DNA of 54,563 bases from Chromatiales bacterium (GTDB taxonomy: Bacteria > Pseudomonadota > Gammaproteobacteria > RBG-16-57-12). Where the stretch lies: the NCBI GenBank assembly GCA_026989455.1, contig JALSJH010000093.1, positions 1-54,563 on the forward strand, written 5' to 3'. Both the position numbers and the translations under genes were made by a program. Positions 2,713 through 42,433 of the stretch are shown piece by piece. Within the stretch, counting starts at the first letter, position 1, and each line of letters starts with the position of its first letter. Under the pieces are notes generated by a model. The model worked only from the letters and a program-made list of their open reading frames with translations, had not been told where the DNA came from and made no database searches.

Positions 2713-2752
2713 GGAAGCGCTGATCAAGTCATGAACCCTAATCAGAGCTTCC
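2713..2752. repeat. 40-bp MITE derivative consisting of the two terminal repeats
   Basis: The ends GGAAGCGCTGAT (2713-2724) and ATCAGAGCTTCC (2741-2752) are inverted copies with one mismatch. They match the terminal repeats of the 155-160 bp elements elsewhere in the window. Almost nothing of the interior remains. The element lies just upstream of the response regulator gene, so it sits in that gene's promoter or leader region. Confidence 0.75.
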
Positions 2753-2816
2753 TGAATAAACCGTACAACTCTGTAAACCTATCACAACCTGAAAAATTAG
2801 CACTGAATTATCTAGG

Positions 2817-2970
2817 GAGGCTCTAACCAAGCCATGAATGTTTTATGCTGGCTGCCCCCCTCATTCGCCTCGAAAGTTGCACCAATAGAACGACTATTAC
2901 TGCGCATTTCGGAACAAATGAGAATAATTTCCTCTCAGCCTAAATTCACCCAGACTTAATCAGAGATTCC
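2817..2970 (-). mobile_element. MITE-like palindromic element, copy 1
   Basis: This copy is full length in reverse orientation. Read on the minus strand it begins GGAATCTCTGATTAAGTC at 2970 and ends CTTGGTTAGAGCCTCC at 2817. The interior contains the conserved core GAAATGCGCAGTAATAGTCG seen in the other long copies. The element begins 9 bp beyond the stop codon of the Sel1 lipoprotein gene. The triplet CTA flanks both sides within one base, a possible target duplication. There is no coding capacity. Confidence 0.85.
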
Positions 2971-2979
2971 CTAGGGAAG

Positions 2980-3462
2980 CTACTGCCAGCTCTTTGTCGC
3001 CCATTCACGGGACTGCGCTAGATCTTTTTCGACACCTTGGCCGGTTTTATACATGTGAGAGACCATTTTCATGGCGTTGTTGTCCCCGGTTTCTGCTAGG
3101 CGCAAGTACCAGTAAAAGGCCTGTGGTTCGTTTTTATTCACCACCGTGCCATCAAGATAGGTTTGTGCGAGATAGCTCACCCCCTCTAGACAGCCGCTCT
3201 CGGCGGATGCTTTAAACCACTCAAATGACGTTTCAGGCTCTTCAGCCCAATAAATAAACCCCAGGAAATATTGTGCTGCTGCTTCACCGTTATTGGCGCG
3301 GATCTGTAACTGATTCAGCAACTCATCCCGCCGCCCCTGTTCAATATAGGTTTGCACCTGCTCCATGGATATTCCGTCATCTAGGCAGGAGTCAATGCTT
3401 GGGCTACACGCAACGACACCGAATAGTAGCAAAATCGTGATAGGTAATTTCATATTCAACAT
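2980..3462 (-). CDS. Sel1-repeat lipoprotein
   Basis: The protein has 160 residues. MKLPITILLLFGVVACSPS is a lipoprotein signal with lipobox VVAC. The mature part contains Sel1-type (TPR-like) repeats, visible as AAAQYFLGFIYWAEE, SFEWFKASAESGCLEGVSYLA and AMKMVSHMYKTGQGVEKD. Sel1 repeats usually mediate protein-protein contacts, so an envelope scaffold or regulator is likely. The ATG follows the upstream gene's stop directly (TAAATG), so the two are probably co-translated. An ATG three codons downstream could also serve as the start. The gene ends 9 bp before MITE copy 1. Confidence 0.8.
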   Translation of the reverse strand: MLNMKLPITILLLFGVVACSPSIDSCLDDGISMEQVQTYIEQGRRDELLNQLQIRANNGEAAAQYFLGFIYWAEEPETSFEWFKASAESGCLEGVSYLAQTYLDGTVVNKNEPQAFYWYLRLAETGDNNAMKMVSHMYKTGQGVEKDLAQSREWATKSWQ

Positions 3463-4182
3463 TTAGAACAGGCTTCCTGAAGGGAGATAACGCCACTCAC
3501 CCGGCTTAAGCTTGCCCATAGAGACGCGGCCAATCCGTATCCGCAGCATCGACACTACCGTCAAACCAACCTGCTGGCACATATATTCAATTTGTCCGGG
3601 ACGTACATTTTTCAGCGCAAAACGTAAACAGTGGTCACTCTGCCAGCTCACTTTTGTGCTGGGTAGTTGCCAGCCATCCAGACTCATTGGCTGATTAAGC
3701 CGATCGATGCCATCCTCGGCTATTTCACCCATCACTTCCACCACATACTCTTGCTCATTTTTGCTGGCATCATCGATCAAGCGCCGCAGAATACGGCCAT
3801 CCTGAGAGAAAACCAGCAGCCCTGTTGCAGCGGACTCCAGCGGTACGGTTGGCCGTTGACGGGCGAGGTGGCGCTTAAGAAGGGTGATACCTGAAACATC
3901 ATCCTTCGAGCGTGTCTGTGGGGTAATCTGTGGTAACGCTGCCGCTGGAGCTTCAATATCGTAGCCGTCCGGCTGGTGAAACAGTATTGTGGCGGGCATA
4001 ACGGGGGTCAGCGTGGCATCGGTATGTAGCTCTATTTTTTCTGATGTGACTTTGAATTGCGGCTGGTCGATCATCTCGCCATCCACCCGCACCCAGCCCC
4101 CTTCGATATATTTTTGTGCTTCACCACGGGAGCACTGAATCAGTGCCACCAGCCGCTTATCAAGACGTATCGACTCACTCAT
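3463..4182 (-). CDS. RsuA/RluF-type pseudouridine synthase homologue with altered catalytic motif
   Basis: The 239 residues comprise an N-terminal S4 RNA-binding domain (RLDKRLVALIQCSRGEAQKYI, about residues 6-50) and a C-terminal pseudouridine synthase fold. The latter shows QEYVVEV (144-150) and VRPGQIEYMCQQVGLTVVSMLRIRIG, typical of the RsuA branch. The universally conserved GRLDxxTxGLL motif here reads VPLESAATGLL (113-123), placing Glu116 where the catalytic Asp should be and losing the Gly-Arg before it. The protein may therefore be inactive on uridine, binding RNA only, or be a divergent enzyme. It overlaps the upstream DUF4124 gene by 8 bp and abuts the Sel1 gene, so all three look like one operon. 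Confidence 0.75.
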   Translation of the reverse strand: MSESIRLDKRLVALIQCSRGEAQKYIEGGWVRVDGEMIDQPQFKVTSEKIELHTDATLTPVMPATILFHQPDGYDIEAPAAALPQITPQTRSKDDVSGITLLKRHLARQRPTVPLESAATGLLVFSQDGRILRRLIDDASKNEQEYVVEVMGEIAEDGIDRLNQPMSLDGWQLPSTKVSWQSDHCLRFALKNVRPGQIEYMCQQVGLTVVSMLRIRIGRVSMGKLKPGEWRYLPSGSLF

Positions 4183-4426
4183 TATTTATTACCTTATCGT
4201 TCGATATAGCAGCTTCACGCCTTGCCCTTATGGCCTCAGCTCTTGCCACCGCCTGTGCCCGTGATGAGATATTATTGGGGTAGACATTCTCATCAACCCG
4301 CGCTGCTTTCTCAGCACAGGGTTGATCGCGACTCACCACCTCGCCACTGGGCAGCGTACATTGATAGGTGGCGGCATGAACGGGCAGTGACAGCAGTGAT
4401 AAAAGAAAAAAGCAGTGCCATTTCAT
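4175..4426 (-). CDS. Small secreted DUF4124-type protein
   Basis: The protein has 83 residues. MKWHCFFLLSLLSLPVHA is a clear Sec signal peptide, and the mature part starts ATYQCTLPSGEVVSRDQPC. The pattern of Tyr-x-Cys followed by a Cys near PC is typical of the short DUF4124 domain of periplasmic proteins of unknown function. The C-terminal 40 residues are Arg/Ala-rich and probably helical. It is first in a three-gene minus-strand operon with the pseudouridine synthase homologue and the Sel1 lipoprotein. Confidence 0.7.
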   Translation of the reverse strand: MKWHCFFLLSLLSLPVHAATYQCTLPSGEVVSRDQPCAEKAARVDENVYPNNISSRAQAVARAEAIRARREAAISNDKVINNE

Positions 4427-4570
4427 TATGTTAACCCTAGGGAGTGACTTTAAGATAACTAGCGTGGTGCAAATTTTAACATCCAGCCAATAAAAACCAA
4501 CCGCAGTGTTCCACTCTTCTCGCTAATTCGCTACCATTGCGCCAGAAAATATCTGAATCAGAGTAAACGC

Positions 4571-5668
4571 ATGTTACCCCGGTTAAATGTAATTTTAAGT
4601 AAACAGCGCCAGAAAGCGGTCTATCTACGCGACCATGCGGTAGGTTTCAGCATTTTTAAATCCTTTACCTTTCTTCTCATTATTTTAATCGTCCACACAT
4701 TTTTGATGACGCTGTTCGAGGGGTTATCATGGGGTGATGCCATTTGGCTCACCCTGACCACAGCGACCACGGTGGGTTATGGTGATATCTCTGCAGTGAC
4801 AACCGAGGGGCGCTGGACAACGGCACTGCTGCTCTATTGCGGGGGTATTTTTGTGCTCGCCAATTTTGCAGGTGAATATCTGGAAGCACGCAATGAACGT
4901 AAATCACGCAAGATCAAAGGTCAGTGGAACTGGAATATGAAAAATCACATCGTCATTATTAACACCCCCGCACACGGTGGTGACCGTTTTTTTCAAATGT
5001 TGATCAAGCAGATTCGCAACGATAGTAACTATGCCGATATTCCGATTCAAATCATGACCCGACAATACCCTAACGCACTTCCCCGTGAGCTTAGAGATCT
5101 TGGGGTTATTCATTACCACGGTGCTCCCGATGTTGATGAGAGCTTCAATATGGTCAACATCACCCATGCCAAACATATTATTGTGCTGTCAAAAAATGAA
5201 CACGAAAGCCTTTCAGATGCCTTGAGCTACGATATTATTGCGCGATTAGCTGACTTAAATCTGGATAAAAAGAGAGTGATTGTTGAGTGTGTAGAAGATA
5301 GTAACCGTAGCCGCTTTCATCGACTCGGCTTCCATACCGTCATCCGCCCAATCCGTGCCTATCCCGAAGTGTTGGTTCGCACCTTGGTTGCACCTGGCTC
5401 TGAGCAACTTCTGGAGGAGCTATTCACCCACAGTGGCACCCATCCACGACGTTATCCGGTAGAGATCGATAATATCTCATGGTCAGATATTGTGGTTCGT
5501 ATTATGCAAGCGGGGTTTGGTACTGCCCTCTCATACATCAATCAAGCGGGTGAGGCCATCACCAACCCTGATGCCGATGCACAGGTAACCACCCGCGCCC
5601 TGATCATCATGGTTAACGCAAAAAACCTACCAAACCATCAGGATATTAGTCGCTGCCTACAGCCCTAA
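4571..5668 (+). CDS. Potassium channel with cytoplasmic RCK/TrkA-N domain
   Basis: The protein has 365 residues. Two transmembrane helices (about 28-48 and 85-105) flank a pore loop with the K+ selectivity filter TVGYGD at residues 67-72, so it is a two-TM tetrameric channel. After the second helix, NHIVIINTPAHGGDRFF begins a Rossmann-like RCK domain, although the usual GxGxxG is replaced by NTPAHGG. Beta strands such as HIIVLSK and RVIVECVED continue the fold. It resembles bacterial Kch/MthK-type channels. The gene is divergent from the DUF4124 operon across a 144-bp gap. Confidence 0.88.
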   Translation: MLPRLNVILSKQRQKAVYLRDHAVGFSIFKSFTFLLIILIVHTFLMTLFEGLSWGDAIWLTLTTATTVGYGDISAVTTEGRWTTALLLYCGGIFVLANFAGEYLEARNERKSRKIKGQWNWNMKNHIVIINTPAHGGDRFFQMLIKQIRNDSNYADIPIQIMTRQYPNALPRELRDLGVIHYHGAPDVDESFNMVNITHAKHIIVLSKNEHESLSDALSYDIIARLADLNLDKKRVIVECVEDSNRSRFHRLGFHTVIRPIRAYPEVLVRTLVAPGSEQLLEELFTHSGTHPRRYPVEIDNISWSDIVVRIMQAGFGTALSYINQAGEAITNPDADAQVTTRALIIMVNAKNLPNHQDISRCLQP

Positions 5669-5687
5669 AGCAATCCAAGGTGACCCC

Positions 5688-6065
5688 TCAATTCTCTGGG
5701 TTTTCAGCCTTATCCATCCAGTAGCGGTATTTCTGATAATCCATTGGCAAACCCCACCACCCTTCACGGTAACCCGCTGCTAGGTATTGCTGCGCTTCGA
5801 CCACATCGTTTTGCGCTGCAATTTTATAAAGCTCAACCGCTTTTTGCTCATTAAACTCCACCTCAACACCACTGTGATACATGATAGCGAGGTTGAAAAT
5901 TGAGCGAGAATCACCCTTTTCTGCAAGTGATTGCAGTGTCGGCAGTGCCTGTTCGTACTGTTGGTTTTTCAACTGGGTTATCGCTTCTTCATACTCATCA
6001 TTTACCGCCTGTACGGTTGTAAACATCGCAGCCATGACGAGCCCGGAGATCATCTGTTTTTTCAT
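5688..6065 (-). CDS. Secreted Sel1/TPR-repeat protein
   Basis: The protein has 125 residues. MKKQMISGLVMAAMFTTVQA is a Sec signal without a lipobox cysteine. The mature domain has TPR/Sel1 helices (YEQALPTLQSLAEKGDSRSIFNLAIMY, then AVELYKIAAQNDVVEAQQYLAAGYREGWWGL). It is probably a periplasmic protein-interaction module. It converges with the K+ channel gene 19 bp away. It is the second Sel1-repeat protein in this part of the window. Confidence 0.75.
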   Translation of the reverse strand: MKKQMISGLVMAAMFTTVQAVNDEYEEAITQLKNQQYEQALPTLQSLAEKGDSRSIFNLAIMYHSGVEVEFNEQKAVELYKIAAQNDVVEAQQYLAAGYREGWWGLPMDYQKYRYWMDKAENPEN

Positions 6066-6168
6066 CTCTGTTCCTCAATAAAGTATCGTACCGTTCATAA
6101 TTTCTTTGCAGGAACGCAAACTATTTTTCCTGTAGAGCGCTCTCCACCTCTTAGCTCTGGTATCGACG

Positions 6169-6211
6169 CGCTTAATAATTACATTAGTTTTCTTAATGTA
6201 ATTATTAAGCG
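6169..6211. repeat. Perfect 18-bp A/T-rich inverted repeat (hairpin)
   Basis: The arms CGCTTAATAATTACATTA (6169-6186) and its exact complement (6194-6211) are separated by a 7-base loop. No T-tract follows, so it does not look like a standard terminator. It lies between the divergent Sel1 and cytochrome genes, 20 bp before MITE copy 2. It could be an operator, a cruciform site or a remnant of another repeat. Confidence 0.7.
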
Positions 6212-6230
6212 GGAATATAAAGCAGCATAA

Positions 6231-6388
6231 GGAACCTCTGATTAAGTCTGGATGGATTTAGGCTGAGAGGAAATTGCTCTCATTTGTTCTGAAATGCGCA
6301 GTAATAGTCGCTCTATTGGTGCAATTTTCGGGGAAAATGAGGGTAATTTCAGCCAACATAAAACACTCATGACTTGATTAGCGCTTCC
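6231..6388 (+). mobile_element. MITE-like palindromic element, copy 2
   Basis: This is a full-length forward copy. The left end is GGAACCTCTGATTAAGTC (6231-6248) and the right end is GACTTGATTAGCGCTTCC (6371-6388). The interior pairs with itself: GGCTGAGAGGAAATTGCTCTC near the left is complemented by the stretch around GAGGGTAATTTCAGCC near the right. It lies 91 bp upstream of the five-haem cytochrome start, within that gene's presumed promoter region. Confidence 0.88.
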
Positions 6389-6479
6389 GTAATCAGGGTG
6401 CGGCAATTTGCCACATTGCATGACTCCATGTTTATTAGCATTATCTAATGCATATAAAAACAACCGATGGAGAGTGGAG

Positions 6480-8171
6480 ATGCTTCAATACAAACAACTC
6501 ATATTAATGGTTTTAGGGGGGCTCTATCTCTTATCAATAACCGCCTGCAACAGCAGTCCAGATAAAAACGAGTTAGCCGATAACGATACCAGCGCCACTG
6601 AACAGCTGGTTTTTAAACTAGCCCCTCTCTCTTCGGGGGATCCCACCTTCACATCAGAGCATTTTTCGGGTTCAACAAACTGCGTCATGTGTCACGATGG
6701 GCTGAGTGATGAAGTGGGTAGTGATGTCTCAATCGTGACGGACTGGTCGTCCACCATGATGGCCAATGCCACCCGCGATCCATTTTGGTTAGCTAAAGTG
6801 CGCAGCGAACTCAACCGAAACCCTCAACTAAGTGATCTAATCAACGATAAGTGCACACGCTGTCATGCGCCGATGGCGAATGAAGAGATTCGTCGCAGCG
6901 GCAACAAAATATCTATTTTTGACGCTGGCTTCCTAGATGAAAACCACCCTCGACACGATGCGGCAATGGACGCGGTTAGCTGTACCTTATGTCATCAAAT
7001 AACAGACGACCCTCAGCTTGGTACCGCAGATGGTTTTTCCGGTCATTTTGAAATCAATGAAGCTAAAATCATCTACGGCCCCTACGATAATATCTACACC
7101 CAACCAATGATTAATCACACTGGGTACACCCCGACCTATAGCACCCATGTACAAAAGTCTGAACTCTGTGCAACCTGCCACGAATTAAAGACACCCTATG
7201 TGGATAAGTCGGGAACAATCTTGAGTCAAACTTATGAAGATGAGTTTCCTGAGCAGACACCCTACAGCGAGTGGCTCAATAGTGATTATGCTGAACTAAA
7301 GAGTTGCCAAGATTGCCATATGTCGCGTGCTGACGGTGTCATTATGGCGACACGCCCCCGCTGGCTAACCACTCAGCGAGACAATTTTGCGCTCCACGAC
7401 TTTATTGGTGCCAACAAGATGATGCTGGATATTTTTGATAAAAACCGTGATCAGTTAGGTATTCTTTCAAACAACTTTGCTGAGACCATCGCCAAGACAG
7501 AAACCATGTTATCTAACGCGGCCACCCTTCAGCAGGTACAATCCTCTCTGGTTGATGGCCAGTTAGATTTCACCTTGAAAATAGAGAGTCAGACAGGCCA
7601 TAAATTACCCAGTGGATATCCCTCTCGCCGCGTAGTATTGCATGTAACGGTTCGAGACAGTGCCGGAGATATTGTGTTTGAGTCTGGCCGCCCCAATGAG
7701 AATGGCAGTGTCGAGGGTCTGGATGCCGATAATGATCTAGCGCGCTACGAGCCACACTATGACCTCATCACCTCCGCCGACCAAGTACAGGTATATGAAG
7801 CCATTATGGCCAACAGTGACGAAGAGGTGAACTATACCCTGTTGCGAAGTATGAAATACCTCAAAGACAACCGTATACTCCCGATTGGCTTTAATAAAGA
7901 GACAGTGCCAAATGACATTGCCGTAAAAGGTCACGCCCTCACGGACCCTGATTTCATCGGCGGCAGTGATCAAATCAGTTATCAAATTAACGGACTTTCA
8001 GCGGGGAGTTATACCATTGAGGCCGAATTACTCTACCAGACGATATCCTACGCATTCGGACAAGATCTATTTCAAGACTCAAGCCTTGAGGTGGCAGATT
8101 TTGAAGCGATGTATAACGCCTCTACTTTCAAATTTGTACCCATGACAAAGCTACAATTTCAACTACCATAG
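6480..8171 (+). CDS. Five-haem c-type cytochrome lipoprotein
   Basis: The protein has 563 residues from the ATG at 6480, which is preceded by a GGAGAGTGGAG purine run. MLQYKQLILMVLGGLYLL leads to a lipobox ending at Cys23 (ITAC). Five CxxCH haem-binding motifs follow: CVMCH (68-72), CTRCH (125-129), CTLCH (168-172), CATCH (230-234) and CQDCH (276-280). About 280 C-terminal residues have no haem motifs and look beta-rich. The spacing resembles multihaem cytochromes of the cytochrome c554/NapC-like superfamily, but I cannot assign a substrate. It should be membrane-anchored and face the periplasm. A small monohaem gene follows 62 bp downstream and is probably co-transcribed. Confidence 0.85.
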   Translation: MLQYKQLILMVLGGLYLLSITACNSSPDKNELADNDTSATEQLVFKLAPLSSGDPTFTSEHFSGSTNCVMCHDGLSDEVGSDVSIVTDWSSTMMANATRDPFWLAKVRSELNRNPQLSDLINDKCTRCHAPMANEEIRRSGNKISIFDAGFLDENHPRHDAAMDAVSCTLCHQITDDPQLGTADGFSGHFEINEAKIIYGPYDNIYTQPMINHTGYTPTYSTHVQKSELCATCHELKTPYVDKSGTILSQTYEDEFPEQTPYSEWLNSDYAELKSCQDCHMSRADGVIMATRPRWLTTQRDNFALHDFIGANKMMLDIFDKNRDQLGILSNNFAETIAKTETMLSNAATLQQVQSSLVDGQLDFTLKIESQTGHKLPSGYPSRRVVLHVTVRDSAGDIVFESGRPNENGSVEGLDADNDLARYEPHYDLITSADQVQVYEAIMANSDEEVNYTLLRSMKYLKDNRILPIGFNKETVPNDIAVKGHALTDPDFIGGSDQISYQINGLSAGSYTIEAELLYQTISYAFGQDLFQDSSLEVADFEAMYNASTFKFVPMTKLQFQLP

Positions 8172-8233
8172 ACGAGCCATCATCGGACTCACTGAAAAGC
8201 ATTAATACCCAACAAAAACAGAGGAGAAATAAA

Positions 8234-8680
8234 TTGATAATTCCCCCTATTAAAAAGGCCGCTTTGGTTGCGGGCTTCATCACCACTCTTTTTTCGCATC
8301 AAATAATGGCTGAACAGAGTGAGCCATTAGTTTTGCAGAAAATCATGTTCGATATGGGAGAGGAGATGCAAAACATTACGGCGGGCATTTCAAGTGAAGA
8401 TTGGCAGCGAGTTGCCGAAGCGGCCATTAAAATAGCAGATCACCCCAAGCCACCCGTCAGTGAGCGTATGCGCATTATGAGTCTGCTAGGAACAGAGATG
8501 GCGGCGTTCAAGGAGGGGGATATGGAGACCCATCAATCTGCGCGAAAACTCGCTGAAATTGCCAAACAGGAAAATGGTCAAGCGGTCATTTCAGCCTTTT
8601 CGGTCCTTCAAAACAACTGCCTGAGTTGTCATGAAAATTACCGTGAAAAGTTTCAGGCACATTTTTACGGCACACCGTAA
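8234..8680 (+). CDS. Small monohaem cytochrome (cytochrome c'-like), TTG start
   Basis: The protein has 148 residues from a TTG codon at 8234, preceded by GAGGAG at 8221-8226; no nearby ATG gives the signal peptide. The N-terminus up to HQIMA is a Sec signal. The mature protein is helical and carries a single CLSCH motif at 129-133 close to the C-terminus, the arrangement of class II cytochromes (cytochrome c'). Haem attachment would occur in the periplasm. It follows the five-haem cytochrome and is followed at once by a shortened MITE. It is probably paralogous to the gene at 10377-10844, which has the same layout. Confidence 0.8.
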   Translation: MIIPPIKKAALVAGFITTLFSHQIMAEQSEPLVLQKIMFDMGEEMQNITAGISSEDWQRVAEAAIKIADHPKPPVSERMRIMSLLGTEMAAFKEGDMETHQSARKLAEIAKQENGQAVISAFSVLQNNCLSCHENYREKFQAHFYGTP

Positions 8681-8684
8681 ATTA

Positions 8685-8769
8685 GGAAGGTTCTGATTAG
8701 ATCTGGATGAATTTAGGCTGAAAACAATTTCAGCCAGCATAAAACATTTATGACTTGATCAGAGCTTCC
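8685..8769 (+). mobile_element. MITE-like element, internally deleted 85-bp copy 3
   Basis: Both ends are present: GGAAGGTTCTGATTAGATC on the left and GACTTGATCAGAGCTTCC (8752-8769) on the right. The central part, including the GAAATGCGCAG core, is missing: AGGCTGAAAAC runs directly into AATTTCAGCCAGC. The remaining stem is still self-complementary. TTA stands on both flanks (8682-8684 and 8770-8772), a possible target duplication. It starts 4 bp after the cytochrome stop codon and could serve as that transcript's 3' stem. Confidence 0.82.
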
Positions 8770-8835
8770 TTAACAGGCTCCGCTCACTTCACCCCACCAA
8801 GTCTACTTGAGGGCCGTGGTGGCCAGCAACAACCA

Positions 8836-9942
8836 CTAGGATGGATTCAAATAGTGCTGTTTAATCACCGTATTCAACACCCTTACCCAACGCTCTGAAA
8901 ATTGTGTGGCTTTGTTGTTATTCAGCTCCAATATCGCACGCATAACCGAACGCTTGTGCAGACGATCCGCCCTGGGTCGTGTCAGTGAGATGTAGGCATC
9001 CACAACACTGATCAGCTGAGCACCCTCACAGATGGCATCACCCTTCAACTTTTTGGGGTAGCCATTGCCATCGATACGCTCATGATGTTGCAAAATCATT
9101 TCGCTCACGCTCTCCCAGCCGGGAAGGCGCTCCGCCAGTTGTGCCGCCACTACGGGGTGATTTCGTAACTGCGCCAACTCATCCTCATTCAAACGTTCAT
9201 TTTTTGAGATGATAAACTCCGGCAGCAAGCCCATGGCAAAGTCATGCAGATAGATCGCCGCAGTGAGTTTGTAGGGTTCGACCGGTGTGCCCGCCAGTGC
9301 ATTCATCTCCATTGCCAAAGCCAAGGTTCGCTCTCCCCGCCCCTGCCAGAAGAGGGAGCGTTGCTCGCACTGCTTCATTAAAAGATAGAAGTAGTCCAGA
9401 TCACCCTCCATTCCGCAAGAGGCGGCAGAGTCCGCTTCACCACTCTCTGCTGAAAGGTCAAAGTCGCTACCCAGATCATCAAAACTTTCACTTAACAAGC
9501 AGAGGCTGTACTGAATGGCCGCATACTGCTCTCCCCCCTGCACGCCACAAATATCGGTCAGGCTCTCTTCAATTTTACGATTCCCCTCAATATCTTGAGG
9601 TTCACCCGCAACAAAACATTCAACAATGGTATTAAGGCGATCCATTGAGAGCAACACCACTTCACCCAGCTGAGGCGTAAAGCTCATCTTGCCACTGCGT
9701 AACACCTGCAATAGCTCCTCAAGCGAGTGTGCAAACTGAGAAACCGGATCCATTTTACAAAAACAGGCGTTGCCTTTAATCGTGTGGACAGCGCGGAATA
9801 TATTGGCCAGTAGCTCTTTATCATCAGGATCAGCCTCAAGATGGGTAAGATCCCCTTCAAGCTCACGCTGTTTTTCAACAAAGTCTTCGAGGAAATCTTT
9901 TAGAAGATCGCCATCGATCTCCAAGTCATGCTCTAACGCCAT
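8836..9942 (-). CDS. HPt domain fused to HD-GYP-type domain protein
   Basis: The protein has 368 residues from the ATG at 9942; an in-frame GTG at 10002 would add 20 residues without a clear domain. Residues about 5-115 form a histidine phosphotransfer domain, with FRAVHTIKGNACF carrying the phospho-His53. The C-terminal 170 residues resemble an HD-GYP phosphodiesterase: YLHD (231-234), then HHE (286-288) and DGNGYP (291-296). The usual LHDIGK segment is degenerate (LHDFAMG). HD-GYP domains hydrolyse cyclic di-GMP, so this is probably a signalling protein fed by a phosphorelay; activity is uncertain because of the altered metal-site region. No receiver domain is present. Confidence 0.8.
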   Translation of the reverse strand: MALEHDLEIDGDLLKDFLEDFVEKQRELEGDLTHLEADPDDKELLANIFRAVHTIKGNACFCKMDPVSQFAHSLEELLQVLRSGKMSFTPQLGEVVLLSMDRLNTIVECFVAGEPQDIEGNRKIEESLTDICGVQGGEQYAAIQYSLCLLSESFDDLGSDFDLSAESGEADSAASCGMEGDLDYFYLLMKQCEQRSLFWQGRGERTLALAMEMNALAGTPVEPYKLTAAIYLHDFAMGLLPEFIISKNERLNEDELAQLRNHPVVAAQLAERLPGWESVSEMILQHHERIDGNGYPKKLKGDAICEGAQLISVVDAYISLTRPRADRLHKRSVMRAILELNNNKATQFSERWVRVLNTVIKQHYLNPS

Positions 9943-10089
9943 AAAAACAACACCCCGTAAAGATATAAATGTATCGCCATGACCATCGACAAAACCTGTC
10001 ACTAATTAATGTTTAATTTGTTTTTTTAGCTCTTCTCCACTCTTGTGAGTAGATATTAAAGAGTACGGACACTCCCTAGCCAATCGAGG

Positions 10090-10125
10090 AAAACAAAAAA
10101 CCGGGGCGCAGTTGTTTTTTGTTTT
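10090..10125. repeat. 12-bp A/T inverted repeat upstream of tRNA-fMet
   Basis: AAAACAAAAAAC (10090-10101) and its exact complement (10114-10125) enclose the 12-base loop CGGGGCGCAGTT, and further T residues follow on the plus strand. It resembles a rho-independent terminator reading rightwards, but no gene ends just before it. The 87 bp before it, back to 10003, contain no convincing coding sequence. Confidence 0.5.
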
Positions 10126-19021: not shown

Positions 19022-19177
19022 GAAAGCTCTGATTAAGTCTGGGTGGTTTTAGGCTGAGAGGAAATTGCCCTCATTTATTCCGAAATGCGCAGTAATAGTG
19101 GCTCTATAGGTTGTTTTTGGGATAAATGAGGGCGGCTTTAACCAGTATAAAACATTCATGACTTGATCAGAGCCGCC
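19022..19177 (+). mobile_element. MITE-like palindromic element, copy 4
   Basis: This is a full-length copy. The left end is GAAAGCTCTGATTAAGTC (19022-19039), and the right end finishes GATCAGAGCCGCC at 19177. The interior has GAAATGCGCAGTAATAGT and the complementary pair around GAAATTGCCCTC and GAGGGCGGCTTT. TTA flanks both ends. It fills the intergenic space between the serpin gene's 3' end and the GH57-like start codon, so the leader of the GH57-like gene is MITE sequence. Confidence 0.87.
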
Positions 19178-23783: not shown

Positions 23784-23821
23784 GGAATCAGATCAACACT
23801 CATGATTTGATCAGCGTTTCC
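23784..23821 (+). repeat. MITE derivative of about 38 bp overlapping a gene 3' end
   Basis: The right 28 bp (23794-23821, CAACACTCATG followed by ATTTGATCAGCGTTTCC) match the right end of MITE copy 2 with few changes. The left side, GGAATCAGATCAA, looks like a damaged left end. The last codons and the TGA (23800-23802) of the minus-strand hydantoinase-type gene lie within it. Confidence 0.65.
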
Positions 23822-35223: not shown

Positions 35224-35291
35224 AACAGACTCTCAGCAATACATTAACAGGCGCAACCTCAAGGGAAGCGACAACATCGAAGGTAACCGAT

Positions 35292-35309
35292 GTGACAAAA
35301 CTGTAACAC
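35292..35309 (-). promoter_or_regulatory. Pho box 1 upstream of phoB
   Basis: The minus strand reads GTGTTACAGTTTTGTCAC: two 7-mers related to CTGTCAT with a 4-base spacer. The first repeat is imperfect. It is 69 bp upstream of the phoB start. Confidence 0.72.
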
Positions 35310-35316
35310 AGCAGAT

Positions 35317-35334
35317 ATGACAAAATTGTGACGA
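35317..35334 (-). promoter_or_regulatory. Pho box 2 upstream of phoB
   Basis: The minus strand reads TCGTCACAATTTTGTCAT, again 7-4-7. It lies 25 bp upstream of the first site and 15 bp from the left end of MITE copy 5. Confidence 0.72.
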
Positions 35335-35348
35335 AACATTATACCTTG

Positions 35349-35480
35349 GGAAGCGCTGATTAACTCTGGATCAATTTAAGCTGAGAGGGAATGGCTGTTA
35401 TTTATTTCGAAATGCGCAGCAATAGTCGCTCTATGGGTGCGATTTTTGGAGATACAAAGGAGGCGGTTTCAACCAGAAGA
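35349..35480 (+). mobile_element. MITE-like element, right end missing (copy 5)
   Basis: The left end GGAAGCGCTGATTAACTC is at 35349. The core CGAAATGCGCAGCAATAGTCG and the segment to TTTCAACCAGAAGA follow, but the expected ATAAAACATTCATGACTTGATC end is absent after about 35480. The truncation lies 43 bp before a separate 20-bp inverted repeat. Because the left end faces phoB, the element bounds the phoB promoter region. Confidence 0.8.
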
Positions 35481-35522
35481 TTGCTCCCAGAGCGTTGAGT
35501 TGACATCAAAATTTATTACCCC

Positions 35523-35574
35523 GGGGTCAGAGTAAAACAAGCACCAATGTCGGCGCTTGTTTTACTCTAACCCC
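35523..35574. repeat. 20-bp inverted repeat, 12-bp loop, after czcA
   Basis: GGGGTCAGAGTAAAACAAGC (35523-35542) pairs with the complementary arm at 35555-35574 except for one base. There is no T-tract. The GGGGTCAGAGT head recalls sequences near REP-associated transposases in other gammaproteobacteria; that link is from memory and unproven here. It lies 23 bp beyond the czcA stop, so it may also stabilise or end that transcript. Confidence 0.72.
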
Positions 35575-35597
35575 AGGGCGTTCGATTGCTCGATGGG

Positions 35598-38500
35598 CTA
35601 TCTTTCAGCCAGTTTGGCTTTGGAGAACCAGGCAAACAGGGTGGGTAAGATAAACAGGGTCAGGAAGGTGGCGGTTAGTAGCCCACCGACAATCACGGTG
35701 GCGAGGGGTTTTTGAATTTCTGCCCCTACGCCGGTCGAGATCAACATCGGTATCAGCCCGAGCGCTGAGGTGATGGCGGTCATCAATACCGGGCGCAAGC
35801 GTGAGGTTGCGCCACTAAAAACGGCATCGTCCACCGACAATCCATCGGCAATCCGTTGATTGATACTCTCTACCATCACCACGCCATTCAGCACTGCAAC
35901 TCCAAACAGGGTTATAAAGCCGATAGAGCTGGGTACCGAGAGGTACTGCCCGGAGAAGTAGAGGGCGAAGACTCCGCCAATCACCGCCAGTGGCACATTG
36001 ACCAAAATAAGCAGCGCTTGCCCTACTGAGTTAAATGCGAAATAGAGCAGCAGTGCAATCAGTGCCAAAGAGAGCGGAACAATCATACTGAGTCGTTGTT
36101 GTGCTCGCTGCTGGCTCTCAAACTGCCCACCAATATCGACGGAGTAGCCAGAAGGCAACTCTACCTGCTCTGCAATGACACGCTGGATATCTGCCACCAC
36201 GCTGCCCATGTCACGCCCCTGCACATTGGCTTGAATAACCACGCGCCGCTGCACATCGTCTCGGCGCACTTGAGGCGGGCCGGATTCAATGCTGATTTGA
36301 GCCACATCACCCAGTCGCACCCAGGCTCCGGTGGGGGCTTGTAGGCGCAGGTTGTTAATCGCAGTGGGATCAACACGGAAGGATTCCGCCAGACGAACGT
36401 AGATGTCATAACGCTCGTTGCCATTGATAATCTGCCCCGCCTCGCGGCCACCCAGGCCATCCCGGACAATCGCCATCACATCACCCACCGCCAATCCATA
36501 ACGTGAGAGCTGCGCTCTGTCTGGGCGTATCACCAGTTGCGCTTCGCCAACAATTTGCTCCATTGCCACGTCCCGCGCACCGTCTACACTCTGTATGACT
36601 TTTTCGATGGCGGCACCCTTCTCTGCTAATACCGCCAGATCAGGGCCAAACAGTTTAATCGCCAGCTGCGCCTTCACCCCTGACAATAGCTCATCAACCC
36701 GGGTGGCTATGGGTTGTGAGAAATTGAGCAACAGGCCGGGATGCTGCTCCAGCTTATGCTCCATCAACCCTTGCAACTCCTGACGGTTGCGGGCGCTACT
36801 CCACTCGCTAACCGGCTTCAAGCCAATGTAGATTTCGATATTGTTGACCGGCTCCGGATCACCACCAATTTCTGGGCGACCCACTCGACTCAGGGCGTAA
36901 ATAACTTCAGGGAACTCCAGCAACATCGCTTCCAGTTTTGGGGCAACCGTGAGCGCGGTCTCTAGGCTGGCAGAGGGGGCCAGTGTGACCCGCAGGTTGA
37001 TGGTCCCCTCTTCAAGCTCAGGCACAAACTCGGTACCCAGCTGCGGCACCAGCGCCACTGTTGCGATCATCAGCAACACTGCGCCACCCACCACTACTCG
37101 GGTTCTTTTTAGTGCCCAACGTAAGCCACAGCGATAAAGGTTATCCAGCGGTTTCAAAACAAAGCTCTGTTTTTCGCGCACCCCGTGGCGAAACAGGTAG
37201 GTAGCCAGCGCCGGTACAATGATTAGCGCCACAAAAGCGGCCGCCACAACCGCCAGCATAATGCTGATCGCCATGGGCTGAAACAGCTTCGCCTCAACAC
37301 CTTCAAAACTGAACAGCGGTAGAAACACTACTAGAATAATAGAAGTGGCAAAGAATATCGGACGCACCACCTCCCTACCGGCAATTTGTAATCGCAACGC
37401 AATACCGTTTTTATCATGAGCCACATCATAAGGATCCAAATCCTGAGCGCCGGTACGGGCTTTGGCCTGTTTATCATGCTCGGCATCGGGGTGTGACAGG
37501 TGCTTGAACATATTATCCACCATCACCACCGAGCCATCCACCAACATACCAATGGCCACCGCAATGCCACCCAGTGACATCAGGTTGGCTGAGAGTCCAA
37601 ACCAGGCCATGATCATCAAGGCGATACCAATCGATATGGGAATGGAGATCAACACCAGAAAGGTAGCCCGCAGGTTCATCAAAAACAGCGCCAGCACCAC
37701 CACAATAAAGATGAAGGCCAGCAGCAGTGCATTGACAACCGTCATCACCGCCTGGCTAATCAGATCACTCTGATCATAAAAGACCTCAAAACGCACCCCT
37801 TCTGGCAGTGCCTGTTGAATTAACGCCACACGACTCTCTATGCCGTCAATGGTACTTTTGGTATTGGAACCCATGCGTTTCAGTACAATACCGGCAACCA
37901 CTTCACCCAGCGCCTGCGGGTTACCCTGCGCATCGCGACGCGTCATGGTAACGGCACCCTGGCGTATTTCACTGCCCAGCGCCACCGTGGCTACTTGCGC
38001 CACGGTAACCACGGTGCCATCGACCGTTTTCAGGGGGATTTGGCGTAACTCTTCCAACCCCTGCTCATCGTGGCCTAACCAGCCGACACCACGAATAACC
38101 AACTGCTCTTGACCACGATCCATATACCAGCCACCGGCATTGGCGTTATTGTTTTCCAGCGCTTCTACAACATCTTGCTGGTTCAAACCATAGGCCAGCA
38201 GGCGGGATGGATTCAAGTTGACCTGGTACTGCTTTACATCACCACCAAAGGATAAAACATCGGTCACGCCATCCACCGGCATCAGTAACAGTTTGACGAT
38301 CCAATCATTCAGGCTGCGCAGCGCCATCGCATCAAAACGGGTTTTGTCATCTGCCACTAATAGATATTGATAGATCTGCCCCAGCCCCGAGGTATTGGGG
38401 CCAATCTCCGGCATACCCACCCCCTCCGGGATCAGCTCTTTTGCCGATTGCAGTCGCTCGAAGACCAACTGACGGGCAAAATAGATATCCTTCCCCTCCT

Positions 38501-38792
38501 TGAAAACCACGGTAATGCCCGACAGGCCGGTTTTGGAGATAGAGCGCACTTGCTCCACATCAGGCAGTGCATACATCACCGCCTCAATGGGGAAGGTAAT
38601 TAACTGCTCAACCTCTTCAGAAGCCAGACCGGGCGCTTCTGTGTTAATGGAGACCTGTACATTGGTCACATCAGGAAATGCATCTAGGTTCAGTTTTGGA
38701 ATAATAAGTGTCGCTGCCGCCGTTAGCGCCAGCAAGCCAATCACAACCAGTAAACGGTTGATAACTGACCAGTCGATAATACGATTCAACAT
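35598..38792 (-). CDS. czcA: CzcA/CusA-type heavy-metal RND efflux pump
   Basis: The protein has 1064 residues and the RND topology of 12 membrane helices with two large periplasmic loops. HME-subfamily features are DAFPDVTNVQVSINTEAPGLASEEVEQLITFPIE at the start and ISIPISIGIALMIMAWFGLSANLMSLGGIAVAIGMLVDGSVVMVDN in TM4, which holds the proton-relay acidic residues. It exports divalent cations (Co, Zn, Cd) or monovalent Cu/Ag across both membranes with CzcB and CzcC; the sequence alone does not settle the metal. It is the last gene of the czc group, and the 237-bp gap to czcB is unusually large. Confidence 0.94.
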   Translation of the reverse strand: MLNRIIDWSVINRLLVVIGLLALTAAATLIIPKLNLDAFPDVTNVQVSINTEAPGLASEEVEQLITFPIEAVMYALPDVEQVRSISKTGLSGITVVFKEGKDIYFARQLVFERLQSAKELIPEGVGMPEIGPNTSGLGQIYQYLLVADDKTRFDAMALRSLNDWIVKLLLMPVDGVTDVLSFGGDVKQYQVNLNPSRLLAYGLNQQDVVEALENNNANAGGWYMDRGQEQLVIRGVGWLGHDEQGLEELRQIPLKTVDGTVVTVAQVATVALGSEIRQGAVTMTRRDAQGNPQALGEVVAGIVLKRMGSNTKSTIDGIESRVALIQQALPEGVRFEVFYDQSDLISQAVMTVVNALLLAFIFIVVVLALFLMNLRATFLVLISIPISIGIALMIMAWFGLSANLMSLGGIAVAIGMLVDGSVVMVDNMFKHLSHPDAEHDKQAKARTGAQDLDPYDVAHDKNGIALRLQIAGREVVRPIFFATSIILVVFLPLFSFEGVEAKLFQPMAISIMLAVVAAAFVALIIVPALATYLFRHGVREKQSFVLKPLDNLYRCGLRWALKRTRVVVGGAVLLMIATVALVPQLGTEFVPELEEGTINLRVTLAPSASLETALTVAPKLEAMLLEFPEVIYALSRVGRPEIGGDPEPVNNIEIYIGLKPVSEWSSARNRQELQGLMEHKLEQHPGLLLNFSQPIATRVDELLSGVKAQLAIKLFGPDLAVLAEKGAAIEKVIQSVDGARDVAMEQIVGEAQLVIRPDRAQLSRYGLAVGDVMAIVRDGLGGREAGQIINGNERYDIYVRLAESFRVDPTAINNLRLQAPTGAWVRLGDVAQISIESGPPQVRRDDVQRRVVIQANVQGRDMGSVVADIQRVIAEQVELPSGYSVDIGGQFESQQRAQQRLSMIVPLSLALIALLLYFAFNSVGQALLILVNVPLAVIGGVFALYFSGQYLSVPSSIGFITLFGVAVLNGVVMVESINQRIADGLSVDDAVFSGATSRLRPVLMTAITSALGLIPMLISTGVGAEIQKPLATVIVGGLLTATFLTLFILPTLFAWFSKAKLAER

Positions 38793-39029
38793 AATCTTTA
38801 TCTCTCTGTTCAGTTAACTCGAATATTTCATTAATTCGCAAAAAATCACGCAGTCGTTTGTTTTTACAGGCAAACACCCCGAAAAATCGCCGCATCAATG
38901 ATAACAAACGATAGCGGAAGTATTACCTGTGGGGTCAAAGCTGTCGCGTCCTGCTATCGCCCCTTACCTGCGTCCATGCAGGGATTAAACAGATGAAATT
39001 GTGCTTAATTTATAAATTATCCGGGTTAA
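38793..39029. other. Non-coding gap between czcB and czcA
   Basis: No supported reading frame is present. A short stem CCTGC-GTCCAT-GCAGG lies near 38967-38982, with scattered A/T-rich sequence. The czc genes are usually tightly spaced, so this gap may hold a processing site, an extra promoter or an eroded insertion. Confidence 0.45.
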
Positions 39030-40313
39030 TTAATGGTTGTGCGGATCAAAACCACCTTTGGCCATCTCCGACTGCACAAAAAAAGCACCTTTACCCACAA
39101 TGGTGGTGCCCTCTTCAATACCCTCAATCAACATGCGGTCACCCACCGTATCCAGCACCGTCACCTCTGTAGGTTCAAAGCGACCTTGAGCGGTCTCCAC
39201 AAATAGTTGCCAATCGCCATCGGGGCTGCGTAAAACAGCCGCTACCGGCACCACCAGCCCTTGGCGCTTTTGGTTGCCTTCGATCACCACATTTACAAAC
39301 TGACCGGGGTGGATCTCATCGTTACGATTGGCCACTTCAATATGCACCGCCAGGGTGCGAGTGGTCTCATCCAGGGTGTGGCGAGCGCGCACCACTTCGC
39401 CGCTGATCCAACGCTGGCCAACCTGCACTTGAGCAGGTGATCCCAGTGCGATACGGGCGGCATCATCCGGGGTGAGTCGTGCCTCAATCCAGAGCAGAGA
39501 CTCATCACTGATCTCCATCAATACATAACCCGGCTCAATCAATTCACCCACCACAAAATCATCACTGATAATGGTGCCCTTTTGAAACGAGAGCAGATGA
39601 AACTCGCCTGTAGCGTGAGTTGCATCGCCGGTTTCGATCAAAGATTCGATCTGTTTTTTGGTCATACCGTAAGCGTTGACCTTGGCATAAGCCTGTTGAT
39701 AGGCGATTTGAGCCGCAACAAAGCGCTTTTCGGAAACCACTTTACGCCCCAGCTTTTCAACTCGACGCAGCTCAACACCCGCCTCCATCAACGCCCCTTG
39801 TGCCTCAGCCATCTCAACACTAGAGAGGGTAATCAGTCGCTGCCCTTTTTTAATATGATCCCCAAGGTGGGCATGGCGTTTAATCACCTGAGCCGGTGTG
39901 CGCGGTGTCACCTTGGTGGTTCGATAAGCGTTCAATATCGCCTCACCCGGTGCGGTAATCGCATCACCCAGCGACTGACGGGTAACCCTCATGGTCTCAA
40001 TACCGGCGATACGGCGTTGAGTCTCGCTCAGCTCAACATCGCTCGCCTCTTCACCATGGCCGTGACCATCATCACCCGCCTCATCGTGGCCACCGTGGTC
40101 ATGACCCTGCTCTTCATGACCATCATCCTGATGCCCATGCCCCTCTTTCTCGTGTTGGTGTCCCTCATCACCATGCGGTGCATGACTCTCCATCATTTCG
40201 ATATCTGAAAAATCATCCATACCCTCATCATCGTGGCCATGACCCTCACCGGCAAAAAGAGCGCCGGGTGCGGTCAAACTCAATAAAATCCATAACATCA
40301 ATCTACTTTTCAT
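39030..40313 (-). CDS. czcB: CzcB-type periplasmic adaptor with His-rich N-terminus
   Basis: The protein has 427 residues from the ATG at 40313, just inside the end of czcC; longer in-frame starts add no signal. MKSRLMLWILLSLTAPGALFAG is the signal. Residues about 23-100 are rich in His, Asp and Glu (repeated HGH, HEH and HDH motifs) and probably bind metal. The membrane-fusion core follows: barrel-sandwich hybrid, helical hairpin and beta barrel (VKRHAHLGDHIKKGQRLITLSSVEMAEAQ, RTLAVHIEVANRNDEIHPGQFVNV). It links CzcA to CzcC and may hand metal to the pump. The C-terminus ends GGFDPHNH. Confidence 0.92.
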   Translation of the reverse strand: MKSRLMLWILLSLTAPGALFAGEGHGHDDEGMDDFSDIEMMESHAPHGDEGHQHEKEGHGHQDDGHEEQGHDHGGHDEAGDDGHGHGEEASDVELSETQRRIAGIETMRVTRQSLGDAITAPGEAILNAYRTTKVTPRTPAQVIKRHAHLGDHIKKGQRLITLSSVEMAEAQGALMEAGVELRRVEKLGRKVVSEKRFVAAQIAYQQAYAKVNAYGMTKKQIESLIETGDATHATGEFHLLSFQKGTIISDDFVVGELIEPGYVLMEISDESLLWIEARLTPDDAARIALGSPAQVQVGQRWISGEVVRARHTLDETTRTLAVHIEVANRNDEIHPGQFVNVVIEGNQKRQGLVVPVAAVLRSPDGDWQLFVETAQGRFEPTEVTVLDTVGDRMLIEGIEEGTTIVGKGAFFVQSEMAKGGFDPHNH

Positions 40314-41619
40314 CTGTTTTATCTCCGGAATTCTCTGTTTGTGCGGGGGTAAAACCCAGCCAAGCCTCAACCTGCGCCGAGGCATCCAACCAACCAATGG
40401 CCGCCCGCCACACCTCACCCACCAACACAGTCGCCGCTGTCTGGGTATTAATATTCTGCTTTGCTTGAATCAGGTAGTCAGTGGCCGTCAACTCTTCGGC
40501 CTGCCATAGCTGCTCCAGCAAGCTCATCTGTTCACGGTGCGCCTGCTGCCCAGTGGCAACCCAAGCACGCCACGCACGGCTGGTGTTTTTAAAGCGCCCC
40601 AATGAACCGGCCAGACGTGCTTTAGCGCGGCGATGAGCATCACGATAAGCCAGCTCTTCGACCACTGCATCGTAAGAAGCTGCACGCACTTCCGCCTTAA
40701 AGTTGTTACGCACAAACAGCGGGATTTCTAGGCTCAGCCCCAACAGAGTCTCAGAACCTTCTCGACCCGCACGAACACCAATGGTGGGGTCTGCCCGCCC
40801 TTGCCGCTCCGCCAAGCCAATGCGCGACTTAGCAGCCTCCATCCGGCTACGCAACACCACGAGCGCGGGGAGTGACTGAAGCAGCGCCGGATCAACCTGC
40901 TGCGGAGGCGCTGCCAACCGAGTCGGTAACGATGGCCAATCAACACGACCCGAGCCGCTTACCGCCTGTAGTGCCGCTTCAGCCTCAGCCAGCTCACTCT
41001 CTCTCGCCGCCTGCTTCATCAAGGCTTCACTGTAAGTAACGTGCGCCAAGGTGCCCTCTAGCGCCCCCATATCACCCGCCGCCTGACGCTGTTGCACCGC
41101 ATCAACAAACCCCTTCATCAGCTGACTACGGCGCACCGCCAACATCTGCATTTCACGCGCTGTGAAATATTGCGCCAACGCCTCAAGCGCCTCCACCGCC
41201 ACTTGCTGGCGATACTCCCGCAGTTCAGCCTCAGCGGAACGAACAGCAGAGAGCGCAATACCCGTTTGAGCCGCTCGCTTATCCCCCCAGTCCAACGTCT
41301 GGCGAAAACCGATTGAAGCGGTATTCACATCGGTGCGCTCAGCTTCCAGCTCAAGGCTTGGGTTATAGAGAGGGCGATCAGCCCCCGCCACTCGCGCCCG
41401 AGCGGCCTCAACCGCCGCTTGCGCCCCTAGCATTATTGGGCTATCCCGCCACACCTGCTGAATAAAAGCCTGGAGTGATGGATCAGAAAAGTGTGCCGTA
41501 TCAGCACTGATAGTCAGGGTCGAGAGAGGTCTCTGCGGGTACTCGGGGGGAGGTGCTGCCCAAACGGGTAACACCAGACAAGCGAGTACGCCTGCCGATA
41601 AATATTTTTTAAACAACAT
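40303..41619 (-). CDS. czcC: CzcC-type outer-membrane efflux protein
   Basis: The protein has 438 residues. MLFKKYLSAGVLACLVLPVWAAPP is a signal peptide. The body shows the TolC-like repeated coiled-coil architecture: SIGFRQTLDWGDKRAAQTGIALSAVRSAEAELREYRQQV and, in the second repeat, LLGLSLEIPLFVRNNFKAEVRAASYDAVVEELAYRDAHRR. It forms the outer-membrane channel for CzcAB. The start of czcB lies within its last codons (11-bp overlap), so the two are translationally coupled. Confidence 0.92.
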   Translation of the reverse strand: MLFKKYLSAGVLACLVLPVWAAPPPEYPQRPLSTLTISADTAHFSDPSLQAFIQQVWRDSPIMLGAQAAVEAARARVAGADRPLYNPSLELEAERTDVNTASIGFRQTLDWGDKRAAQTGIALSAVRSAEAELREYRQQVAVEALEALAQYFTAREMQMLAVRRSQLMKGFVDAVQQRQAAGDMGALEGTLAHVTYSEALMKQAARESELAEAEAALQAVSGSGRVDWPSLPTRLAAPPQQVDPALLQSLPALVVLRSRMEAAKSRIGLAERQGRADPTIGVRAGREGSETLLGLSLEIPLFVRNNFKAEVRAASYDAVVEELAYRDAHRRAKARLAGSLGRFKNTSRAWRAWVATGQQAHREQMSLLEQLWQAEELTATDYLIQAKQNINTQTAATVLVGEVWRAAIGWLDASAQVEAWLGFTPAQTENSGDKTDEK

Positions 41620-41695
41620 AAACTAAATCCTTCGCGTACAAAGAAAAATCACTACGCATTACACAGCGGCAATACATAACAAAACAGCGAAAAAT

Positions 41696-42013
41696 TTAGG
41701 CGATAGGGGGTCTTAAAAGTGGGGCTATATAGAGGGAGCGGGGAGTCTGGGCGGAAACAATAAAATCACTATTGCTCACCATAGAGAAAGGCGCGGTTTG
41801 AGTAAAAACAAGACCCACCAAATGGGCACTGCCATGACCACAGTGATTATCATGATGCAGATCACCCTCCGCATGGTCATGCTTTTCACAAGCGGAGAGA
41901 TCGGCAGAGAGCAGATCGTGACCCACCACTGACCCGGGATGGACATCCCAAGCATAAGCCAAACCTAAACTAAGGTTGGCCAACAGTAATAGACAGATCA
42001 GTACTTTCTTCAT
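41696..42013 (-). CDS. Small periplasmic His-rich protein upstream of czcC (CzcI-like)
   Basis: The protein has 105 residues. MKKVLICLLLLANLSLGLAYA is a Sec signal. The mature part is rich in His, Asp and Cys (SACEKHDHAEGDLHHDNHCGHGSAH), a likely metal-binding segment. Its size and position just before czcC recall CzcI-type regulatory or metal-buffer proteins, but I cannot confirm family membership. It is 76 bp from czcC and probably transcribed with it. Confidence 0.7.
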   Translation of the reverse strand: MKKVLICLLLLANLSLGLAYAWDVHPGSVVGHDLLSADLSACEKHDHAEGDLHHDNHCGHGSAHLVGLVFTQTAPFSMVSNSDFIVSAQTPRSLYIAPLLRPPIA

Positions 42014-42273
42014 AATGGTGGCTAATTTAGGTGAAGTATGGCTACGCTGTCAACACCAAAGCAAGGAAATGCGAAGTTCTTCCACAGTAGTCCATTGATC
42101 AATAACTCTCCAACTTACGGACTACCGTTGTCAGAAACCTTTACACTCATGACCATAGCCGCTCCCAAAAAGCCGTACACATCCTTTAAAATCATGCCAT
42201 TATAGCTTGGGCATGAATATTGCTTACAACCTCAGCATAACTATATTTAGTTTGTTAAATTTACGCTATTCAG

Positions 42274-42433
42274 GGAAGTTTCTGATTAAGTCTGGATGAA
42301 TTTAGACTGAGAGGGGATTGCTCTCATTTATTCCGAAATGCGCAGCAATCATCGCTCTATGGGTGCGATTTTCGGGATAAATTTAGGGTGATCTCAGTCA
42401 GCATAAAACATTCATAACTTGATCGGAGCGTCC
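42274..42433 (+). mobile_element. MITE-like palindromic element, copy 6
   Basis: This is a full-length 160-bp copy. The left end is GGAAGTTTCTGATTAAGTC, and the right end finishes CTTGATCGGAGCGTCC at 42433. The interior shows the shared core CGAAATGCGCAGCAATCATCG. It fills much of the gap between the His-rich protein gene and the PEP-CTERM gene (42014-42457), whose start codon is 24 bp beyond. The rest of that gap shows no other signal. Confidence 0.87.

Follow-up and report, generated by a model that had tools for sequence, protein, structure and literature searches.

A family of short palindromic repeats was analyzed in a 54,563-nucleotide stretch of DNA from a Chromatiales bacterium (JALSJH010000093.1, assembly GCA_026989455.1), referred to here as the window, which is contig 93 in an assembly that comprises 116 contigs and 2.37 Mb. 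We read the repeats, with a probability of roughly 0.6, as a non-autonomous IS5-type miniature inverted-repeat transposable element (MITE) whose body is kept for the putative RNA fold of one of its strands. The elements are short noncoding transposons that most likely depend on another transposon's enzymes for their movement, and a constraint on the MITE body at the RNA level is the likelier case. IS5-family transposases would act in trans on the terminal inverted repeats (TIRs), and the body would be kept because the RNA of the strand beginning with CTGG (the CTGG-first strand) must fold. Selection would act on amplifying lineages rather than on neighboring genes.

Hairpin architecture and strand asymmetry

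The elements are bounded by TIRs of c. 18 bp, the left one being GGAA-N-CTCTGATTAAKTCTGG and the right one the complement of GGAA-N-CTCTGATCAAKTCATGA. Among 178 unique TIR pairs spaced 40 to 400 bp apart in the fetched loci, 116 delimited elements of 158 to 161 bp (48, 51, 13, and 4 pairs, respectively). The other pairs had spans of 40 to 390 bp, and some of them reflect neighboring ends paired by chance. The element at 6231-6388 of the window was predicted to fold end to end at -62.2 kcal/mol (z = -7.0), and none of 200 shuffles was as low. Three other examples likewise folded end to end, at -84.1 (z = -12.4), -103.3 (z = -16.7), and -81.0 kcal/mol (z = -11.6). An earlier reading of the window made from the letters alone (the sequence-only reading) had proposed that the interior folds back on itself and that each RNA copy would form a long hairpin. 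This was upheld and proved to be understated, as the whole element takes part in the fold.

When 29 diverse elements were aligned, the TIRs, an apical stem (AATAG...CTATT), and the loops flanking it were conserved, while much of the stem differed. The internal loops and the apical core lay at fixed places in different hosts. RNAalifold predicted 40 pairs for these elements, 22 of them with two-sided changes. Paired cells amounted to 94.5%, compared with 80.5% after shuffling, and double-changed cells to 168, compared with 59.7 in the shuffles; neither value was reached in any of 500 shuffles, in a test that ignores relatedness and favors a structure derived from the same sequences. When the structure was slid by 1 to 3 columns, pairing fell to 32 to 54%. 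The TIR positions co-varied as well (columns 5-160, 12-153, and 16-149). These results show that the arms of the hairpin change together across host families.

The ends and core of five elements of genome G353 (L056, L165, L167, L168, and L171) are near-identical, but their middle stems differ considerably and are nonetheless self-complementary, which looks like a joint exchange of matching segments in the two arms.

Elements were oriented by their ends, with CTGG at the left and TCATGA at the right. The CTGG-first strand had the lower folding energy in 131 of 135 unique elements (mean, -79.3 versus -54.0) and in 21 of 24 representatives. For the wobble counts, which avoid energy rules, the reverse complement of each element was aligned to the element itself under strand-symmetric scoring. 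A loose count, which took in every aligned arm position, loops included, gave 735 G.T and 270 A.C cells in the interiors of the 135 elements; in this count and in the energy comparison, L191, L194, L036, and L212 were kept as the end rule placed them. An in-helix count was confined to mismatches with Watson-Crick pairs on both sides in 29 elements less than 85% identical. Here L191 and L194, whose ends are ambiguous, were dropped, and L036 and L212 were turned by hand after the family alignment, as also in the per-element count. The in-helix wobbles were 123 G.T versus 20 A.C and, beyond the terminal 24 nt, 76 versus 13, in 36 versus 11 distinct column pairs. G.T exceeded A.C in 24 elements and A.C exceeded G.T in 2, the two being equal in 3. 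The consensus of the window's own genome contained 8 G.T and 1 A.C, the latter within a loop. The in-helix mismatches are as expected if the RNA of one strand is conserved.

Rare C>T and G>A changes were balanced, at 13 and 17 among the resident copies of the own genome and 11 and 10 in a second genome (25 copies), which speaks against mutation bias. At consensus Watson-Crick pairs in the own genome, changes that keep the pair as G.T made up 28 of 149 rare and 30 of 62 common changes (Fisher P = 3e-5); in a 41-copy set, pair-keeping changes made up 34 of 88 rare and 14 of 20 common changes. The own-genome pattern was read as decay of resident copies together with retention in amplifying lineages.

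Copies, target sites, and IS5-type ends

In the 2.37-Mb own genome, the TIR gave 185 matches at up to 2 mismatches, and its reversed control gave none. A covariance model (R1), trained on elements that include three window copies, gave at least 143 matches with both strands counted (150 of 1,024 candidates scored). From the fetched own-genome loci, 77 near-full-length copies were extracted, a set that leaves out copies with fewer than about 120 aligned query positions, matches running off locus ends, and duplicates. The whole-genome search and copy count thus found the repeats well beyond the window. Alignment of the flanks confirmed target duplications, in that the 4-bp flanks were identical in 42 of the 77 copies, whereas shuffling the flanks among copies gave 9 on average and never more than 17. 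The commonest duplications were TTAA (17), CTAG (7), and CTAA (5). With all hosts pooled, 76 of 121 elements had identical 4-bp flanks, and CTAA, TTAA, and CTAG (YTAR-like) dominated. A body of 160 bp is too short to hold a transposase gene.

Within the window, the TIR GGAAGCTCTGATTAAGTC had nine matches at up to 3 mismatches compared with 0.04 expected, and none of 100 shuffles had nine. R1 was run on the window unfiltered. Four copies are full length: 2816-2970 (155 bp, minus strand; flanks CTAG/CTAG; R1 E = 3e-26), 6231-6388 (158 bp, plus strand; ATAA/GTAA; E = 1.5e-31), 19022-19177 (156 bp, plus strand; TTAA/TTAA; E = 1.9e-28), and 42274-42433 (160 bp, plus strand; TCAG/TCAA; E = 8e-26 over 42275-42433). 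The copy at 8686-8769 (84 bp, plus strand; TTAG/TTAA; E = 6.6e-13) is internally deleted and retains both ends, and the one from 35349 to c. 35456 (plus strand; E = 1.6e-10 from 35349) lacks its right end. These two and the long copies were recovered by repeat finding and alignment. At 2713-2752 lies a true 40-bp mini-element that consists of two TIRs only (no strand assigned; TGAA/TGAA; E = 6.7e-6). The end-only remnant at 23784-23821 (no strand assigned) is doubtful because of its R1 E value of 0.55 and the absence of a target duplication (flanks CGTA/CTTG).

Of the eight dispersed copies described in the sequence-only reading, seven, including shortened forms, are therefore convincing. Small corrections apply to the coordinates (2816 for 2817, 8686 for 8685, and an end at c. 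35456 rather than 35480). The 18-bp TIRs were borne out, at c. 18 bp, by the TIR search and the alignment, whereas the core held to be common to the long copies varies among the four (AGTGG at 19022 and CATCG at 42274).

A contig of the congener G002 is syntenic with window positions 2200-10000 at 83 to 85% identity. In a side-by-side alignment, it was without the element at 2713-2752, 2816-2970, and 6231-6388; around 8686, the two sequences were too diverged for a call of presence or absence. Taken singly, the three sites are ambiguous between gain and loss, and insertion is favored because of the target duplications. The repeats had been described as MITE-like, and the TIRs, 4-bp target duplications, high copy number, and congener sites without the element agree with this.

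Head-to-tail pairs of full elements separated by 4 bp (TTAA in L216) were seen at G000:C62:11036-11355, G000:C38:7513-7835, and L216:267-586, as if the second copy had inserted into the target duplication of the first.

The ends and target of the MITE resemble those of IS5-type insertion sequences (ISs); IS5 elements use YTAR-like targets. In genome G258, locus L107 contains a 275-aa open frame that ends at the contig end and matched the NCBIfam model transpos_IS5_4 (NF033581) at 287.9 bits (cutoff, 140). The frame starts 47 bp inside the TIR GGAAGCTCTGATTTATTCAT with flank CTAA, and the L107 TIR GGAAGCTCTGATTTATTCATCATT matches the right end of L054, a 207-bp MITE relative in the same genome, at 20 of 20 bases. 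In G074, the end of L093, which carries a 119-aa transposase fragment (84.7 bits, under the NF033581 cutoff), is identical to that of the L266 MITE at 17 of 17 terminal bases. L076 (G025) is a 1092-bp element with similar TIRs, a DDE-transposase frame, and flanks TTAA/TTAG. Like these IS5_4-type ISs, the MITE has the 15 to 20 terminal bases and 4-bp YTAR-like flanks, as in L076 and L107, but it is without a transposase. When four MITEs were compared with 9 IS-bearing loci, no similarity extended past the terminal 29 bp (E <= 1), and the true parent may be elsewhere. Because the likeness stops within 29 bp of the ends, derivation of the body from the compared ISs by deletion is not evident.

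The origin transposase had been stated to be absent from the window, which holds for the parent: the window contains a C-terminal DDE transposase remnant of 107 aa at 43843-44166 on the minus strand, the genome's only PF01609 match. The best NCBIfam match of this remnant was IS1182, at 39 bits compared with a cutoff of 270. The element end downstream of it, AAATGGAYCCRCCTTAAG, also occurs with a partial copy of the remnant (95% identity) that lies at the edge of contig 146 of G001. By eye this end is unlike the MITE TIR, and the remnant was rejected as the parent on that ground. A 526-aa transposase frame on G001 contig 146 (L039) was also rejected, as the protein is of IS5_1 type and no TIR-like site at up to 2 mismatches was found in L112, the locus covering the frame. 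A nearby frame resembles what we take to be a group II intron reverse transcriptase.

Other repeats and genes were noted in the window. Just downstream of the truncated MITE, a 27-bp inverted repeat (89%) surrounds GGGGTCAGAGTAAAACAAGCACC at 35519-35578, and the similar GGGGCCAGAGTAAAG flanks a MITE in L010. The region at c. 1994-2092, with many matches in G001 and G002, is a second dispersed repeat. Two direct repeats resembling repetitive extragenic palindromes (CTACCCATCGCAAGCTGAAGCTTGCTCCTACC) lie 87 bp apart at 54425-54562, and two identical tRNA genes, 121 bp from start to start, at 54168-54366.

Hosts and known systems

R1 matched 99 of 369 genomes of the class at E <= 1e-4, 43 of them, in 31 labeled families, at E <= 1e-15; the latter cut was set after the fact, and unrelated hairpins may be among the matches in the other 56 genomes, which are weaker. 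The right-end pattern with one mismatch matched 29 of the 369 genomes, and its reversed control gave 1 match overall. A 23-base end pattern was found in at least 84 stretches among 84,980 species genomes, all of those listed being titled as metagenome-assembled genomes (MAGs). The listed matches included Gammaproteobacteria, Thiotrichales, Pseudomonadales, "Ca. Thiodiazotropha," Methylophaga, and Porticoccaceae, as well as records titled Zetaproteobacteria and "Ca. Manganitrophaceae." R1 matched 9 of the 10 genomes behind loci picked from these matches, with both strands counted 142 times in a Guaymas MAG, 95 in a Thiotrichaceae MAG, 75 in a Zetaproteobacteria MAG, 66 in a MAG titled Methylophaga, and 14 in a Manganitrophaceae MAG; it had no match in the genome of the Porticoccaceae record. 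Single odd host records could be explained by binning errors. Two patterns had no match in viral contigs, and two elements had none in plasmids and phages. The L266 element had no match, to ERIC or otherwise, in an E. coli collection searched in distant mode.

Both main subfamilies occur in one MAG, JALSHQ (isolate 354-166; L216:267-586 and L239:138-296). Its copies are 95 to 96% identical to the consensus of the window's subfamily, and its element of the other subfamily is 89% identical to L266.

No element matched Rfam 15 at gathering scores, and 6200-6420 had no match at E <= 1; a known structured RNA family was rejected on this basis. A literature search with the TIR strings returned nothing relevant by title, and no description of this MITE family was found in the literature searched, with most subscription journals and supplements outside the search. 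The sequence-only reading knew of no named family with these ends. None emerged from Rfam, plasmids, phages, E. coli, or the literature; the ends themselves are of IS5 type, a kind already known.

The following comparisons draw on parts of the papers cited. Bacterial MITEs are described as being about 100 to 200 bp in length, with transcripts that form long stem-loops (PMC2229807, PMC10969869). ERIC/IRU of enterobacteria is likewise intergenic and present in high copy number, with 127 bp and an RNA stem-loop, but it has TA termini and a 7-bp TIR (PMC2229807), whereas the MITE has an 18-bp TIR, a 4-bp duplication, a length of mostly 158 to 161 bp, and other hosts. The Correia/NEMIS elements of Neisseria are MITEs of 107 and 155 bp that form long RNA hairpins, for which RNase III processing is reported (PMC2229807, PMC10969869); they differ in their 24-bp TIR and TA termini (PMC2229807) and are set apart here by description only. 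QMITE1 and QMITE2 of Coxiella burnetii are gammaproteobacterial MITEs with very stable predicted hairpins, and QMITE1 is considered unique to C. burnetii by its authors; again by description only, they differ in their direct repeats (2 to 4 bp WW, SS, or GAAG for QMITE1) (PMC5896051). The hupL MITE of Thiomargarita nelsonii has a high copy number in a sulfur-oxidizing gammaproteobacterium; its description differs in giving 10-bp direct repeats, 19-bp inverted repeats, and no reported IS parent (PMC4853749). The kind is thus already known, and within the literature searched we have not seen this family, its breadth, its near-constant length, or its strand-specific wobble described.

Competing explanations and implications

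Several observations weigh against a body kept for an RNA fold and moved by IS5-type enzymes. The loose count over 15 representatives, 3 of them wrongly or ambiguously oriented, was nearly even, at 59 G.T versus 51 A.C, with G.T more frequent in 7 elements and less frequent in 5. The in-helix criterion was adopted after this count was seen, because many A.C cells sat in the fixed internal loops. Of the 76 interior G.T cells, 28 come from two column pairs, and the elements share ancestry, so that descent matters. Among rare changes in the own genome, T>C (27) exceeded A>G (15; two-sided P = 0.09); the second genome had 14 and 19, respectively. The own-genome ratio of G.T to A.C was 30:22 for common and 28:32 for rare changes, a difference that was not significant (P = 0.26). 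In the second genome, pair-keeping changes were no commoner among common (9 of 24) than among rare changes (25 of 48), indicating that the inference of amplifying lineages is not borne out there. A promoter and terminator scan of 6150-6480 found one short terminator-like match and no sigma-70-like promoter. The matching of IS and MITE ends is based on few cases, in hosts other than the window's only. In the own assembly, no IS5 gene with MITE ends was detected by the two models used for the parent search (PF01609, one remnant; PF05598, none); the transposase bounded by such ends that the sequence-only reading had called for is represented by IS5-family frames beside matching ends in G258, G074, and G025.

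Part of this evidence fits an ordinary IS5-type MITE, in which DNA-level processes, such as arm-to-arm correction in replication or a transposase needing matched ends, keep the arms matched without an RNA role. Its dispersal is accounted for by the TIRs, the target duplications, the empty sites, and the IS5-type genes of other genomes. Resident copies decay (454 one-sided versus 24 compensated cells at consensus pairs), arm-to-arm copying would likewise yield co-varying arms, and the loose count over representatives was nearly even. Such processes do not predict the in-helix excess of G.T over A.C or the fixed internal loops and conserved apical core across hosts, and we regard this explanation as rather unlikely.

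Doubtful too, in our judgment, is a stronger form of the RNA reading, in which the repeat is a mobile structured-RNA element whose putative hairpin RNA of ~158 nt takes part in amplifying the element, for instance through an interaction with the transposase or with the transposase mRNA. Such an element would have used borrowed IS5 ends to disperse across much of the Gammaproteobacteria and perhaps into further groups, and selection among transposon lineages, not host benefit, would conserve a noncoding RNA.

Gene context bears on whether the host could be the beneficiary, through hairpins that govern the stability, processing, or termination of mRNAs, a role reported for ERIC and Correia/NEMIS elements (PMC2229807, PMC10969869). 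Besides these precedents and the very stable hairpins, the position of the copies fits such a module: none of the 77 own copies had a spanning open reading frame (ORF) of 150 aa or more around it, and a gene lay within 30 bp on 33 of 63 stop-facing sides compared with 19 of 79 start-facing sides. The own-genome counts of gene distance and orientation cover the 71 of 77 copies with two predicted neighbors, genes being simple ORFs. A cis role in host mRNAs predicts an orientation bias, and none was seen, as the CTGG-first strand was sense to flanking tandem genes in 22 of 49 own copies and 7 of 18 copies in other hosts (L191 and L194 dropped and L212 turned); this role was rejected. The absence of bias suggests that the putative RNA may serve the element itself. 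In addition, the terminal stem is not followed by a T-run supplied by the element, and resident copies decay, which makes a host-useful module very unlikely.

Strand asymmetry alone cannot separate RNA from single-stranded DNA. Folded attC sites and IS200/IS605 ends are precedents for single-stranded DNA structure in mobilization, and G.T is the better-tolerated mismatch in DNA hairpins too, but selection on the single-stranded DNA of one strand, for mobilization or copying, is the least probable explanation, as TIRs combined with 4-bp target duplications are what a DDE mechanism acting on double-stranded DNA would leave, and IS200/IS605 and attC recombination are not known to make such duplications.

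Bacterial MITEs are commonly taken for decayed insertion sequences. Here, one architecture of near-constant length, internal loops, and apical core is found across about thirty labeled host families, while most of the stem sequence has been substituted in ways that respect pairing, apparently on a single strand. If a body kept for its RNA fold is the correct reading, the family would serve as a natural experiment showing which features a MITE needs for its amplification. The asymmetry between in-helix G.T and A.C would then offer a simple comparative test of whether ERIC, Correia, and other palindromic repeats are RNA elements.

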